Made by a program: the position numbers and the translations under genes
The notes under the pieces: model-generated
Seen by the model: the letters and a program-made list of their open reading frames with translations, nothing else
Databases searched by the model: none
Told to the model about the DNA's origin: nothing
Shown: piece by piece, positions 8,530 to 59,834 of the stretch
Position numbering within the stretch: position 1 is the stretch's first letter
Layout: the number at the start of each line of letters is the position of its first letter
From: Gemmatimonadaceae bacterium
GTDB taxonomy: Bacteria > Gemmatimonadota > Gemmatimonadetes > Gemmatimonadales > Gemmatimonadaceae
Assembly (NCBI GenBank): GCA_036273715.1
Contig: DASUHB010000053.1
Location: 1-64,000 of the forward strand
Direction of reading: 5' to 3'
DNA: 64,000 nt

Positions 8530-8681
8530 GAGTCAGGGAAGCGTCGCCTGAGCAGGCGACTGGGGGAAGAGGGAAGGGGAACGAGGGGAAGTTGAGGCCG
8601 CGCAGAGCCGGCTAACCAGCGCTCCTTACTATAGTATAGCGAGCCCGGCAGTGGCCCGGACGGCTGGGCGGATTTCTCGGG

Positions 8682-8784: not shown

Positions 8785-8911
8785 CTACGCTCATGAAGAC
8801 GCGGACACAGCAGGACACAACGGACACGACACGAGCAACACCAAGCCCTTTGATTTTTTGTCAGTGCTTTGTCCGTTGTGTCCTGTTGTGTCCGCGTCTT
8901 CATGAGCGTAG
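8785..8911. repeat. 41-bp near-perfect inverted repeat with 45-base loop
   Basis: The arm at 8785-8825 (starting ctacgctcatgaagacg) and the arm at 8871-8911 (ending cgtcttcatgagcgtag) are reverse complements with one mismatch. The loop contains a short T-run. Within each arm a ggacaca/ggacac unit is repeated. The structure is too long for an ordinary terminator and could be a fold-back element of MITE type or a bidirectional terminator. Confidence 0.8.
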
Positions 8912-50593: not shown

Positions 50594-50612
50594 CCCCGGG
50601 GCCTGACGGAAG

Positions 50613-50642
50613 AGGGCGACGGCAACAGCCGTCGCCCTTTTT
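50613..50642 (+). terminator. Intrinsic terminator after the DUF4384 gene
   Basis: A perfect 10-bp stem gggcgacggc-aaca-gccgtcgccc is followed by TTTTT. Outer arms (gcctgacg / cgtcaggc) extend it. It lies 20 bases after the stop and ends 18 bases before the convergent gene's stop. Confidence 0.9.
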
Positions 50643-50659
50643 CGTCAGGCCTCGGGGGG

Positions 50660-55013: not shown

Positions 55014-57488
55014 TCATTCGGCTCGCAACGCCACCATGGGGTCGACGTGAGAGGCGCGATACGCCGGGAGCCAGGCCGCAACGATCGCCGTGCCAACGAG
55101 GACGAGGACGACGGCCACGATGCTGGATGGATCGGCGGCGCCCACCTGATAGAGCAGATGCGTGATGAGACGGGCGGACGCGAGCGCGCCGACGAGCCCG
55201 ATGGCGAGCCCGCCTAACGTGAGGACGAGTGCGCGGCGGAGCACCATGGCGAGCACGCTGCGCCGCTGGGCGCCCAGGGCCATGCGGAGGCCGAGCTCGC
55301 GCGTGCGCTGGCCCACCAGATAGGACATGAGGCCGTAGAGCCCGATCGCGGCAAGGACGAGAGCGAGCAATCCGAACACGCTGAACATGGACGCGCCGAG
55401 GAGCCGGGGTTGCAGCTGCGGGCGCTGGATCTCGGTGAACGACTTGACCTCGATGTACGGCAGGCCCGGCGCGAGCGCCGACAGTGCGCGTCGCACGTTG
55501 GTGACGGCTGCCGCCGGATCGCCTGTCGTGCGGACGAGAATGTTCATCGATCCGTTGCGCGCCGTGACGGGCGTCCAGAACGACTGGCGCTGCGTCTCGA
55601 CGATGCTGGAGTACTTGGCGTTGGCGGCGACGCCGACGACGCTGTAGCACACCCACTTGCCGGCCTCATCCTGCATGTCGACGCAGTGGCCTAACGCGGT
55701 CTTGCCGGGCCACATCCGCTTGGCGAACGCCTGATTCACGATCACGACGTGGGCGTTCGACTCCATGTCGGCGACGGTGAAATCGCGACCGGCGATGAGC
55801 GGCGTTCCGATCGTCGCGAAGTAGTGCGGGCCTCCGTTCCAACTCAGGGCGGCGTCGGGTCCGGTCATCGCATTCATGAGATCGGTCGCGTCGGACATCG
55901 AATGCGTCGGTGTGGCGGCATCAGGCACCCGAAAATCATTGACCATGAGCACGCCGGTCACGGGCACCGTGGTGGTCATCGATGCGCTTCGGATGCCGGG
56001 TAACGTCTCGAGTCGTTGGCGCGCGAGCTCATCGAACCGCGCGCTGGCGCTGTCCTTGTACCCGACCACGGAGAGGTCGACCGACACGGCGAGCAGATGC
56101 TGCGCGTCCATGCCGAGGTCGACGGATTCGATGTTTCGGAGGCTGTGCACGAACATGCCGGCGCCGGTGAGGAGGACCACGGCCAGCGCGATCTGCACGA
56201 TCATGAGGCTGGTACGGAGGCGGGAGCGCCGGTCGATGCCTTCGCGCGCGCCTTCCTTGAGCGCGCCGGCCACGTCGGCGCGGGTGGCCGCCCACGCAGG
56301 CACGAGGCCGAACACCAGGCCGCAGCCGATGGCCGCGGCGGAGGTGAACACCAGCACGCGTCCCTGGGCGAAGAAGCTGAGCGGTGGGAGTCCGACGGCG
56401 GGCACGAGGTCCGAGCCCCAGAAGGCGAGCACCAGCCCGGCGCCTGCGCCTAACAGGGCGAGGGCGATGCTCTCGACGAGCAGTTGGCGGGTCAAGCGCG
56501 CGCCGGTGGCGCCGAGGGACAGCCGCACCGCGATTTCCTTGCGCCTAACGGTAGCGCGGGCCAGGAGGAGGTTCGCGGTGTTGGCGCAGGCGATGGCGAG
56601 CACGAGCCCGGCCGCGAGCGCCAGCCAGCGCGCAATGCGTGCGCTGTCGGAGGTGCTCGGGCCGCGGGCCGCGAGAATCGGTCCGAGGGTCAGGCGAAGA
56701 TACGACGGCGCGGATTGCTTGCCGGCGCCGGAGAGGCCGGCGTGTCGGTAGATCGATTCCATCTCCGAACGGGCCGCTTCGCGGGTCACGCCTGGCTTGA
56801 GCCGCGCGACGATCGACAGCCAGAACGCATTGTTCGACGTCAGGTACATGCTCGGATAGCCGACCAGCGACGAGTGCGAGACCGTGATCCATACGTCCGC
56901 GTTGTCGGCATCCACGCCATGGAAGTCGGTGGGCGCGACGCCGATGATCGTGTACTGGTGCCCGTCGAGCACGATCTGTTTGCCGATCACCTGTGGATCG
57001 CCGCCGTACGCCCGCTGCCAGTACGCATGGCTGATGACGGCGGTCGGGGGGCTGCCGGGACCGGCGTCATCTTCGGCCGCGAAGAGGCGGCCGAGCGCAG
57101 GCTGGACGCGGAGGACCGAGAAGAAGTTCCCGGACACGAGGTAGCCGTCCACGTGCCGCGCCGCGCTGCCGAGGCCGGCGCTCAGGCCTAACGAGGAAAA
57201 CGCGGCGACGCCGGACAGCGATTTCGCGCCGTCGCGCCATGCCTGATAGGTGAGATACGAGACGGCCGGGGAGTTGATGAGCATCGTGTACTTGGCGCGC
57301 TCGTCGATGTACGGCCGGACGATGCCGGAGGGTTCGCCGACGCCGGCCGGCGGCCGAAAAAACAGCGAGTCGACGATGCCGAAGACGGTGCTGGTGGCGC
57401 CGATGCCTAACGCCAGGCAGAGGATGGCGGCGGCGGTGAAGCCCGGCGTCCGGCGGAGGGAGCGAAGCGCGAACACGAGATCGGACAT
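55014..57488 (-). CDS. ABC permease, duplicated MacB/FtsX type (ADOP-like)
   Basis: An 824-residue permease. Helix 1 (FTAAAILCLALGIGATSTVFGIVDSLFFRPP) precedes a MacB-type periplasmic domain with VIGKQIVLDGHQYTIIGVAP. A first FtsX core follows (LALAAGLVLAIACANTANLLLARATVRRKEIAVRLSLGATGARLTRQLLVES), then a second periplasmic domain and a second core (GLYGLMSYLVGQRTRELGLRMALGAQRRSVLAMVL). It lacks the PadR-linked N-terminal region of the copy at 19010-21673 and is accompanied by ATPases and an adaptor, so it is probably an efflux or lipoprotein-extraction permease. It is separated from the next upstream gene by a 236-base structured spacer. Confidence 0.89.
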   Translation of the reverse strand: MSDLVFALRSLRRTPGFTAAAILCLALGIGATSTVFGIVDSLFFRPPAGVGEPSGIVRPYIDERAKYTMLINSPAVSYLTYQAWRDGAKSLSGVAAFSSLGLSAGLGSAARHVDGYLVSGNFFSVLRVQPALGRLFAAEDDAGPGSPPTAVISHAYWQRAYGGDPQVIGKQIVLDGHQYTIIGVAPTDFHGVDADNADVWITVSHSSLVGYPSMYLTSNNAFWLSIVARLKPGVTREAARSEMESIYRHAGLSGAGKQSAPSYLRLTLGPILAARGPSTSDSARIARWLALAAGLVLAIACANTANLLLARATVRRKEIAVRLSLGATGARLTRQLLVESIALALLGAGAGLVLAFWGSDLVPAVGLPPLSFFAQGRVLVFTSAAAIGCGLVFGLVPAWAATRADVAGALKEGAREGIDRRSRLRTSLMIVQIALAVVLLTGAGMFVHSLRNIESVDLGMDAQHLLAVSVDLSVVGYKDSASARFDELARQRLETLPGIRSASMTTTVPVTGVLMVNDFRVPDAATPTHSMSDATDLMNAMTGPDAALSWNGGPHYFATIGTPLIAGRDFTVADMESNAHVVIVNQAFAKRMWPGKTALGHCVDMQDEAGKWVCYSVVGVAANAKYSSIVETQRQSFWTPVTARNGSMNILVRTTGDPAAAVTNVRRALSALAPGLPYIEVKSFTEIQRPQLQPRLLGASMFSVFGLLALVLAAIGLYGLMSYLVGQRTRELGLRMALGAQRRSVLAMVLRRALVLTLGGLAIGLVGALASARLITHLLYQVGAADPSSIVAVVLVLVGTAIVAAWLPAYRASHVDPMVALRAE

Positions 57489-57502
57489 GGCGGCTCCGGG
57501 GC

Positions 57503-57714
57503 AGCGGCGGCTCGCGCCGCCTGGGGGAAGCGGGGACAGGTCCCCTGAGGAAAGCCGGCGGCCTAACGGCCACCGGAGGGCGGAGGCGTGCGGGTTCCCC
57601 CGTCGGGCCGCGATCCCCGGACCGCTCCCGACATCCCGCCGGCCGTTGTTAGGCGGCCGTCTCTCCCGGGGGCGGTGACGCCCCCGCGTCCCTCAGGCGG
57701 CGCGAGCCGCCGCT
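57503..57714. repeat. Structured spacer element with 21-bp perfect inverted ends
   Basis: The arm at 57503-57523 (agcggcggctcgcgccgcctg) is exactly reverse-complemented at 57694-57714. Pairing continues imperfectly inward for about 12 bases. Each arm itself is palindromic around ctcgcg/cgcgag. Inside are further stems (ggggac-ag-gtcccc; gggggcg-gtga-cgccccc) and two copies of the GTTAGGC motif in opposite orientation at 57562 and 57648. It lies inside the operon between the ATPase and permease genes and is therefore transcribed; it may fold as an RNA or be a mobile repeat. Confidence 0.7.
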
Positions 57715-57724
57715 TTCCGTTGTC

Positions 57725-58525
<801 letters not shown>

Positions 58526-58589: not shown

Positions 58590-59834
58590 TCAATGCAAAC
58601 TGACGCGGTCGTGCGAATCCCACTGCGACATGTCGGAGATGATCACCTTGTCGCCAACATTGAGACCTTGCACCACTTCGATGGTCGTAACCGATGCCCG
58701 GCCCAACTTCACGTTCACGCGCGTCGCTTCCTTGCCATCGGGCGTCAACTTGAAGAGACCGACCGTGCTCTCCGGCTGTCCGTAAGCGGGCCGCCCGACG
58801 TAGAGCACGTTCTTGAGCCGCTCCACTTCGATTGTCCCGTCGACGCTCAGGTCCGGACGAGCACCTGGCGGCAGTGGCCCGTCGAGCGCCACGTCTACAC
58901 CAACGGTTCCGGACTGCGCCGAAGGATCAATACGCGTTACGTGTCCTTGAACGATTCCGTTTCGCAGGTCGACGGCGCACGGCTGACCGTCCTGCACGTC
59001 GGCCGCCTGGTTTTCCGGAATGCGAAGCTCGGCTTTGAGCTTGCCGGGCTGCGCAACCTTCGCGAGCAGCGTTCCCGGCTGCAGCCACTGACCCGGTTGC
59101 AGATCCATGTCCTGCAGCACGCCATCAGAGCCCGCCCGAACCTCCATCGATTCCACTCGCTTTTTCTGGAATGCCGAAATCGCCTTGAGCCGGTCGATCT
59201 GCTGCTGCTGCAGCTTCAACTGGTCATCGATTGTCTTGGACATCACATCGAGCCGTTGGGTTTCCACCTGGTAGGCAGTTTCCGAAGCGGCCGCTTTGTC
59301 CTTGGCGTTCGCGGCATCCTGCGTGGAGATGAGGCCCTTGGCGAGCAAGGCACCCGACACTTCGGCGGCGCGCTTGTCGGTTTGATATTGATTGCGCGCG
59401 TTCGCCACCACGCCTTCTTCGTTGAGACGCTGTGTTTCCAGCGTCGTCTTGAGGCTGGCCATGGCGGCCTCGGCAGCGCTTAGCTGCTGGTCGGCATTGA
59501 GTTGCTCGAGCGTCACGTCCGGATTGGACATGGTAAGGATCAGGGTGTTGGCCGTGACCTTGGCGGGCGGACGCACGTAGATCTGATCGATGCGGCCTCC
59601 GGTAAGAGCAGAGATCCACACGATCTGATCGGGTACCAACGTGCCGGGTCCACGAACTTGGCGCACCATCTCACCGCGGCGTACCGTGTCGATCATCAGA
59701 GTCGCCCGGTCTACGGGGGGTGCGGCCGGACTGAGGCGACTGAGCGCTGCAGTAATGATCACGACGGCAAGGACGCCAGCGCCGATGAGAATGTTGCGCT
59801 TCTTCTTGCTAGGTGGTTCGCGCGGAATGTCCAC
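58590..59834 (-). CDS. HlyD/RND-type periplasmic adaptor of an ABC efflux system
   Basis: A 414-residue membrane-fusion protein. A signal anchor lies at about 13-33 (NILIGAGVLAVVIITAAL). A barrel-sandwich hybrid domain with a long coiled hairpin (about 105-240, with QLNADQQLSAAEAAMASLKTTLETQRL and KLQQQQIDRLKAISAFQKKRVESMEV) is followed by GVLQDMDLQPGQWLQPGTLLAKVAQPGKLKAELRIPENQAADV. It should link the inner-membrane ABC permease to an outer-membrane channel; no TolC-like gene is in the window. It is the first gene of the minus-strand operon. Confidence 0.88.
   Translation of the reverse strand: MDIPREPPSKKKRNILIGAGVLAVVIITAALSRLSPAAPPVDRATLMIDTVRRGEMVRQVRGPGTLVPDQIVWISALTGGRIDQIYVRPPAKVTANTLILTMSNPDVTLEQLNADQQLSAAEAAMASLKTTLETQRLNEEGVVANARNQYQTDKRAAEVSGALLAKGLISTQDAANAKDKAAASETAYQVETQRLDVMSKTIDDQLKLQQQQIDRLKAISAFQKKRVESMEVRAGSDGVLQDMDLQPGQWLQPGTLLAKVAQPGKLKAELRIPENQAADVQDGQPCAVDLRNGIVQGHVTRIDPSAQSGTVGVDVALDGPLPPGARPDLSVDGTIEVERLKNVLYVGRPAYGQPESTVGLFKLTPDGKEATRVNVKLGRASVTTIEVVQGLNVGDKVIISDMSQWDSHDRVSLH

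Follow-up and report, generated by a model that had tools for sequence, protein, structure and literature searches.

A compound palindrome in an efflux operon of a Gemmatimonadaceae bacterium, probably a resident member of an intergenic repeat family restricted to its genus

The described systems closest to the element reported here are the REP and BIME palindromes and the REPINs. REPs in the literature (PMC3733652) lie preferentially in co-directional and convergent gaps, occur as inverted dimers and show complementary changes in their stems. The repeats analysed below resemble REP/BIME, as described there, in being short intergenic palindromic units with inverted dimers, unevenly distributed between species, in occupying co-directional and convergent gaps and in the complementary changes of their stems, but they differ in the flank, which is GGGAAGC/TTCCC instead of a GTAG or CGTC tag, and in the modules, which are nested two or three deep per arm. 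With REPINs, as characterized in PMC3116915, they have in common the inverted doublet that acts as a single long hairpin, spacers with compensatory changes and extragenic dispersal; according to the same paper the REPIN ends are highly conserved 16-mers tied to a RAYT, whereas here the end stems vary from copy to copy and the rich genomes yielded no RAYT. A further likeness is to the repetitive hairpin elements of sponge mitochondria (PMC2800124), which by their title and abstract are repeated hairpins that invade intergenic regions, although of eukaryotic organelles.

Gemmatimonas receives 0 mentions in the main text of the REP paper (PMC3733652). Full-text searches of one open-access library returned no paper on such repeats in Gemmatimonadetes or Gemmatimonas, as far as titles and abstracts indicate, no match for Gemmatimonas combined with "repetitive extragenic palindromic", and nothing on the topic, by title, for Gemmatimon- combined with miniature inverted-repeat. 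Apparently, the repeats are a class with a distinct flank and a nested architecture, undescribed in a poorly studied phylum. We consider it probable (roughly 0.8) that the element found in the window (the whole stretch of 64,000 nucleotides that was analysed) represents one resident member of a family of non-coding compound palindromes that occupy intergenic gaps and are restricted to this genus.

The palindrome in the efflux operon

The gap 57489-57724 separates an ABC ATPase gene from a gene of a MacB/FtsX permease, both encoded on the minus strand, in an operon of this soil bacterium with the order HlyD-type adaptor, ABC ATPase, MacB/FtsX permease, second ATPase and sigma-54 response regulator, the latter followed by an apparent histidine kinase ORF (recognized by sequence only). 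The features of this region are as follows:

58590-59834, minus strand: HlyD-type adaptor (domain match, PF13437)
57725-58525, minus strand: ABC transporter ATPase (domain match, PF00005), gene upstream of the gap
57489-57724, minus strand: intergenic gap with the compound palindrome, from the ATPase stop to the permease start
57503-57714, minus strand: compound palindromic element, 212 bp, with exact 21-bp ends and nested hairpins (inverted-repeat analysis)
55014-57488, minus strand: MacB/FtsX-type permease (domain matches, PF12704 and PF02687), gene downstream of the gap

The permease is one of a very large group of paralogues, with 81 matches in the genome from which the window comes (hereafter the source genome) and 65-85 in its congeners G001, G004 and G005.

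The preliminary description had reported a 212-bp stretch with exact inverted ends of 21 bp and internal stems, which we confirmed at 57503-57714. With mismatches allowed, its arms reach 33 nt (94% complementary), and the whole is an imperfect palindrome, second among the 20 inverted-repeat pairs listed for the whole window. The third pair of that list (50594-50657; 30 nt, 90% complementary, 4-nt gap) lies beside a gene end. Two mirrored GTTAGGC words, also reported earlier, are indeed present, one at 57561-57567 and the other, which reads GCCTAAC on the minus strand, at 57648-57654. The ribosome-binding region of the permease (minus strand CCGGAGCCGCCATG) comes after the end of the palindromic element, and the element would be carried on the operon mRNA if, as the gene order suggests, the operon is one transcription unit.

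The minus-strand RNA of the gap is predicted to be far stabler than its shuffles (z about -7): with flanks it folds at -173.6 kcal/mol (z -6.2, with 0 of 200 dinucleotide-preserving shuffles as good) and the gap alone at -165.7 kcal/mol (z -7.4, 100 shuffles). Ranked by MFE per base, the gap comes first among the 46 intergenic stretches (80-700 nt long) that a simple codon-score gene caller delimits in 164 kb of the genome. The shuffle z-scores and this rank indicate that the fold is not explained by G+C alone.

A dispersed family of hairpin units

Three hairpin modules can be read in each arm of the window element. The modules are separated by conserved GGGAA/TTCCC spacers, slightly degenerate in this copy (GCTGCCC; GTCCC and GCTTTCC), and the two arms are placed head-to-head. 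The modules, together with one more unit in the window, are listed below; R1 denotes a covariance model for which 42 units were used, all of them from G001 and G005.

57688-57718, plus strand: outer unit of the ATPase-side arm (model R1, 32.0 bits, E 8.9e-6)
57696-57711, minus strand: hairpin GGCGGC-TCGC-GCCGCC of the ATPase-side outer unit
57668-57685, minus strand: second hairpin module of the ATPase-side arm (GGGGGCGTCACCGCCCCC)
57641-57658, minus strand: third hairpin module of the ATPase-side arm, with GCCTAAC at 57648-57654
57557-57574, minus strand: third hairpin module of the permease-side arm, with GTTAGGC at 57561-57567
57532-57545, minus strand: second hairpin module of the permease-side arm (GGGGACCTGTCCCC), between the spacers TTTCCTCA and GCTTCCCCCA
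57499-57529, minus strand: outer unit of the permease-side arm (model R1, 40.9 bits, E 5.2e-8)
57506-57521, minus strand: hairpin GGCGGC-GCGA-GCCGCC of the permease-side outer unit
8536-8568, minus strand: lone family unit elsewhere in the window (model R1, 29.2 bits, E 4.6e-5)

The family unit can be written as TTCCC-NNA-(6-bp stem)-4-nt loop-(stem)-GCTTCCC, in which the spacers are conserved and the stems vary. In all two-armed elements that were read, GGGAAGC units make up the left side and GCTTCCC units the right side, an order that the search for two-armed elements itself required; with its units head-to-head, each whole element is thus a palindrome of palindromes. Two alternative folds are available to it: either each module folds by itself, giving side hairpins in a row along a spacer stem, or the two arms pair with each other as one long rod. 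Among 26 distinct elements, the outer units of the two arms agree in their stem in 16 cases and in their loop in 9, hence heterodimers are common. Members of the GCGAGC-stem subfamily have two central mismatches in the local stem, yet their arms pair fully, so that neither fold alone explains all copies. Pairing between the arms as the sole conserved structure is unproven, as the left and right loops agree in 4 of the 13 elements whose arms both have GCGAGC stems, compared to 2.5 upon permutation (P 0.21).

A DNA search with the whole gap identified no second full copy in the source genome. The same locus of G004 carries a copy 94% identical to the whole gap, and the terminal ~34 bases match many places in G001 and G005. 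With the stem left free, the spacer pattern TTCCCNNAN16GCTTCCC matches 153 places in G005 and 34 in G001, with 0 exact matches in the other 4 genomes of the genus (including the source genome) and 0 matches of its reversed control in all 6. A looser spacer pattern is noisier (places/control: source genome 22/8, G001 172/16, G005 274/11, G003 78/30, G002 44/19, G004 23/10).

Pairing of the stems persists across the units. In the 39 distinct spacer-pattern matches that were examined, 91.0% of the stem cells are paired, compared to 66.9% with shuffled 3' halves (79.1% in the best of 500 shuffles). In an alignment of 42 rows, composed of 38 of these 39 units and 4 further pattern matches, both sides of the stem change at 4 of the 6 pairs (58 cells vs 24.9 shuffled), a count that leans slightly upward because one poorly paired row (3/6 stem pairs) was left out and four were added. 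The stem positions alternate between G-C, C-G, A-U and U-A; in other words, the stems vary by compensatory changes across units.

The covariance search returned units from both the relatives and the source genome. The window element falls into the GGGAAGC/GCTTCCC family by virtue of its two head-to-head units, matched by R1 on opposite strands (E 5e-8 and 9e-6). Across 60 genomes, R1 identified 196 units in G005 and 93 in G001, i.e. the high copy number typical of REP/BIME, and 4 in G004, only 3 in the source genome, 1 in G002 and 0 in G003; 2 of the 54 genomes from elsewhere in the family or order gave one weak match each. In the examined stretches of G005 there are 13 copies of 238-243 bp, in both orientations, with the same module order and the same asymmetric centre, whose presence at unrelated loci points to dispersal of one sequence; the G001 and G005 stretches were chosen for containing matches, and a later set was drawn from pattern matches, which favours complete two-arm elements. 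Of the two ideas put forward in the preliminary description, it is therefore the palindromic repeat family that gains support, with units at many unrelated gaps of two congeners, and the converse possibility, i.e. a structure with no conserved pairing and no other copies, does not hold, as pairing persists and copies are dispersed.

The placement of the family was analysed for 32 two-armed clusters with genes predicted by a simple codon-score caller. After omission of 2 clusters "inside" called genes and 2 at contig edges, 28 with two callable neighbours remained (10 convergent, 12 co-directional and 6 divergent), a set that supersedes an earlier, looser clustering (17 clusters, 5 of them "inside" called genes). 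Convergent gaps are over-used (10/28 clusters vs 31/225 gene pairs overall, P 0.003), and the distance to the neighbouring stop codon is <=62 bases in 31 of 32 cases. One element is located just upstream of a promoter-like sequence; this copy and the divergent cases indicate that membership in the family needs no transcription.

Orthologous gaps and the readings as a regulatory RNA or attC site

The operon is present in 4 of the 6 genomes of the genus, namely the source genome, G004, G005 and G001 (permease identity to the former 98%, 86% and 79%, respectively), while the best permease matches in G002 and G003 reach 41 and 38%. An element fills the ATPase-permease gap in all four operon-bearing genomes (gaps of 129-236 nt), and the orthologous elements begin directly after the stop codon of the ATPase and end shortly before the permease gene starts. 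Their outer hairpins are alike and the interior architecture is common, with a sequence mostly unlike between the source genome, G005 and G001; outside the pair formed by the source genome and G004, little of the interior sequence is shared. The outer loops change together between the source genome and G004 on one side and G005 on the other (TCGC/GCGA to TGGC/GCCA), are mismatched in G001 (TGGC/GTGA), and one pairing base in the outer left arm of G004 has been lost without compensation. All four gaps fold better than their shuffles (z from -7.4 to -10.7). A more distant orthologue (L097, permease 54% identical) has another coding sequence upstream and no such gap.

The preliminary description had also proposed an RNA switch or processing site that sets the ratio between ATPase and permease, and a dedicated cis-acting RNA of this kind (riboswitch, attenuator or processing site) would agree with the position within an operon, the strong fold and the presence of an element in the gap of each of the four orthologues, where the permease starts 16-17 nt after the last hairpin; the consistent filling (4/4) would fit a function too. 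However, the interiors differ among the orthologues, which argues against a sequence-specific switch, the last stem is followed by no T run, and a gene comes at once. Moreover, the window stretch gave no Rfam match with an E value up to 1, nor did 7 related loci at the gathering score, and the units are dispersed over many unrelated sites, on which grounds we reject the switch. As the same units reside in convergent and divergent gaps, such a role finds no support as the reason for the element, and we regard it as quite improbable.

The mirrored words are not special to the gap either, since the 7-mer is over-represented throughout the genome. GCCTAAC occurs 73 times in the window (2.4 expected) and GTTAGGC/GCCTAAC 212 times in 164 kb of the source genome, mostly inside genes; nearly all one-base variants of GTTAGGC occur 1-25 times in the 164 kb, and two reach 65 and 92. 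The density of the word is 1.5-1.6 per kb in the samples of G001 and G005 and about 1 per kb in G002, G004 and L157, with no copy in a 17-kb sample of G003 and 5 copies in loci, mainly acidobacterial, that total 290 kb. Among the sense copies in called genes (simple codon-score caller), 115 of 122 read NNG-TTA-GGC. The word resembles uptake-signal or HIP1-like words; a full-text search for Gemmatimon- together with "uptake sequence" gave no literature match. The arrangement GCCTAAC...GTTAGGC, which mimics the outer core sites of attC, raises the question of an integron attC site: the words span 94 bp (57561-57654), and the genome encodes an integron integrase (L005, G000:C62:115917-116858; TIGR02249, 375.7 bits, above the curated cut-off). 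On the other hand, there is no cassette array here, the orthologous gap of G005 has a single GCCTAAC confined to a hairpin loop, and the operon around the gap is conserved across 4 congeners. We have rejected this extremely improbable reading because the word is genome-wide.

Relation to mobile repeats, other palindromes and possible effect

A classical REP/BIME or REPIN mobilised in trans by RAYT (TnpA_REP) is possible, if doubtful. The traits that match those given in PMC3733652 and PMC3116915 include the small size of the palindromes and their intergenic position, the long hairpins formed by inverted doublets, high copy number in some species and a preference for 3'-ends and convergent gaps; the doublet found here is inverted and able to form one hairpin, as in REPINs. 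Against this, no GTAG or CGTC tag lies beside the stem at the foot of the hairpin, where TTCCC/GCTTCCC is found instead (the invariant columns TTCCC, A8 and GCTTCCC were fixed by the search pattern), stem sequences differ within one family, there are up to three modules per arm, and no Y1 transposase (PF01797) was found in G001 or G005, MAGs that are 75% and 74% complete. The absence of the tag and of a detectable RAYT in two rich genomes is why we do not file the family as REP. A Y1 transposase fragment of the source genome, with an internal TGA (L192, G000:C10:3827-4042) is the only PF01797 match among the six genomes of the genus.

Alternatively, the element could derive from a DDE-type insertion sequence as a MITE whose terminal inverted repeat is the outer unit. 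Such an origin would agree with the 13 copies in G005, which are about 239 bp long, have inverted ends and lie at unrelated sites, but the flanks of these copies show no target duplication on inspection by eye, and the palindromy runs on through several modules rather than stopping at the ends, which makes a MITE unlikely.

The source genome has amplified a different family of inverted repeats, GGACA/TGTCC, unrelated to the GGGAAGC family (e.g. 8785-8911, with 42-nt arms that are 98% complementary, z about -15). Its arm matches 78 places in the source genome, 22 in G004, 1 in G005 and 0 in G001, G002 and G003 (reversed control 0); an earlier DNA search had given 86 rows with both strands counted. 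Comparison of several loci, a non-random set that came up because elements were found in them, revealed different palindromes in corresponding gaps. At the L018/L202 locus, the source genome has a third, unrelated long inverted repeat where G005 carries a 239-bp element. A second locus has a GGACA element in the source genome vs a 239-bp element in G005, both just upstream of the same promoter-like sequence, and a third has an apparent GGACA fragment (by eye) in the source genome vs GGGAAGC elements in G005 and G001. At a fourth, units are present in G005 and no clear element is seen in the source genome, and two further gaps have GGGAAGC elements in both G001 and G005. The third inverted repeat (L018:87-291, G000:C15) is built of AAGGATAAC modules and has no second full copy in the source genome.

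These observations could be read, rather tentatively, as slots at fixed intergenic positions in which one palindrome replaces another over time, with a long foldback kept while family, module number and stems change; the examples would be the GGGAAGC family in G001 and G005 and the GGACA family in the source genome and G004. If this doubtful scenario were true, selection or targeting would act on the foldback at the site and not on its sequence. No clean empty site was seen: all 5 distinct GGACA loci of G004 that align to the examined stretches of the source genome also carry GGACA there, with no insertion polymorphism between the two (5/5 sites shared); these stretches were mostly chosen for carrying this family.

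The best-supported statement remains that of a passenger repeat with REP/REPIN-like behaviour. The element probably entered the operon gap before the four species split and was then inherited and remodelled in place. The repeat as such would spread, or be homogenised, as non-autonomous DNA through some factor, in the manner of REPIN/BIME. Within the operon, it would be transcribed as a passenger, with a possible mild hairpin-barrier effect on the mRNA: by analogy with the reported effects of REP hairpins, a stable rod could uncouple translation of the permease from that of the ATPase and might delay degradation of the ATPase message in the 3'-to-5' direction. Sister species that have the same gaps with different foldbacks constitute a natural experiment, which lets one ask whether extragenic palindromes are selfish DNA, protectors of mRNA ends or sites of chromosome structure.
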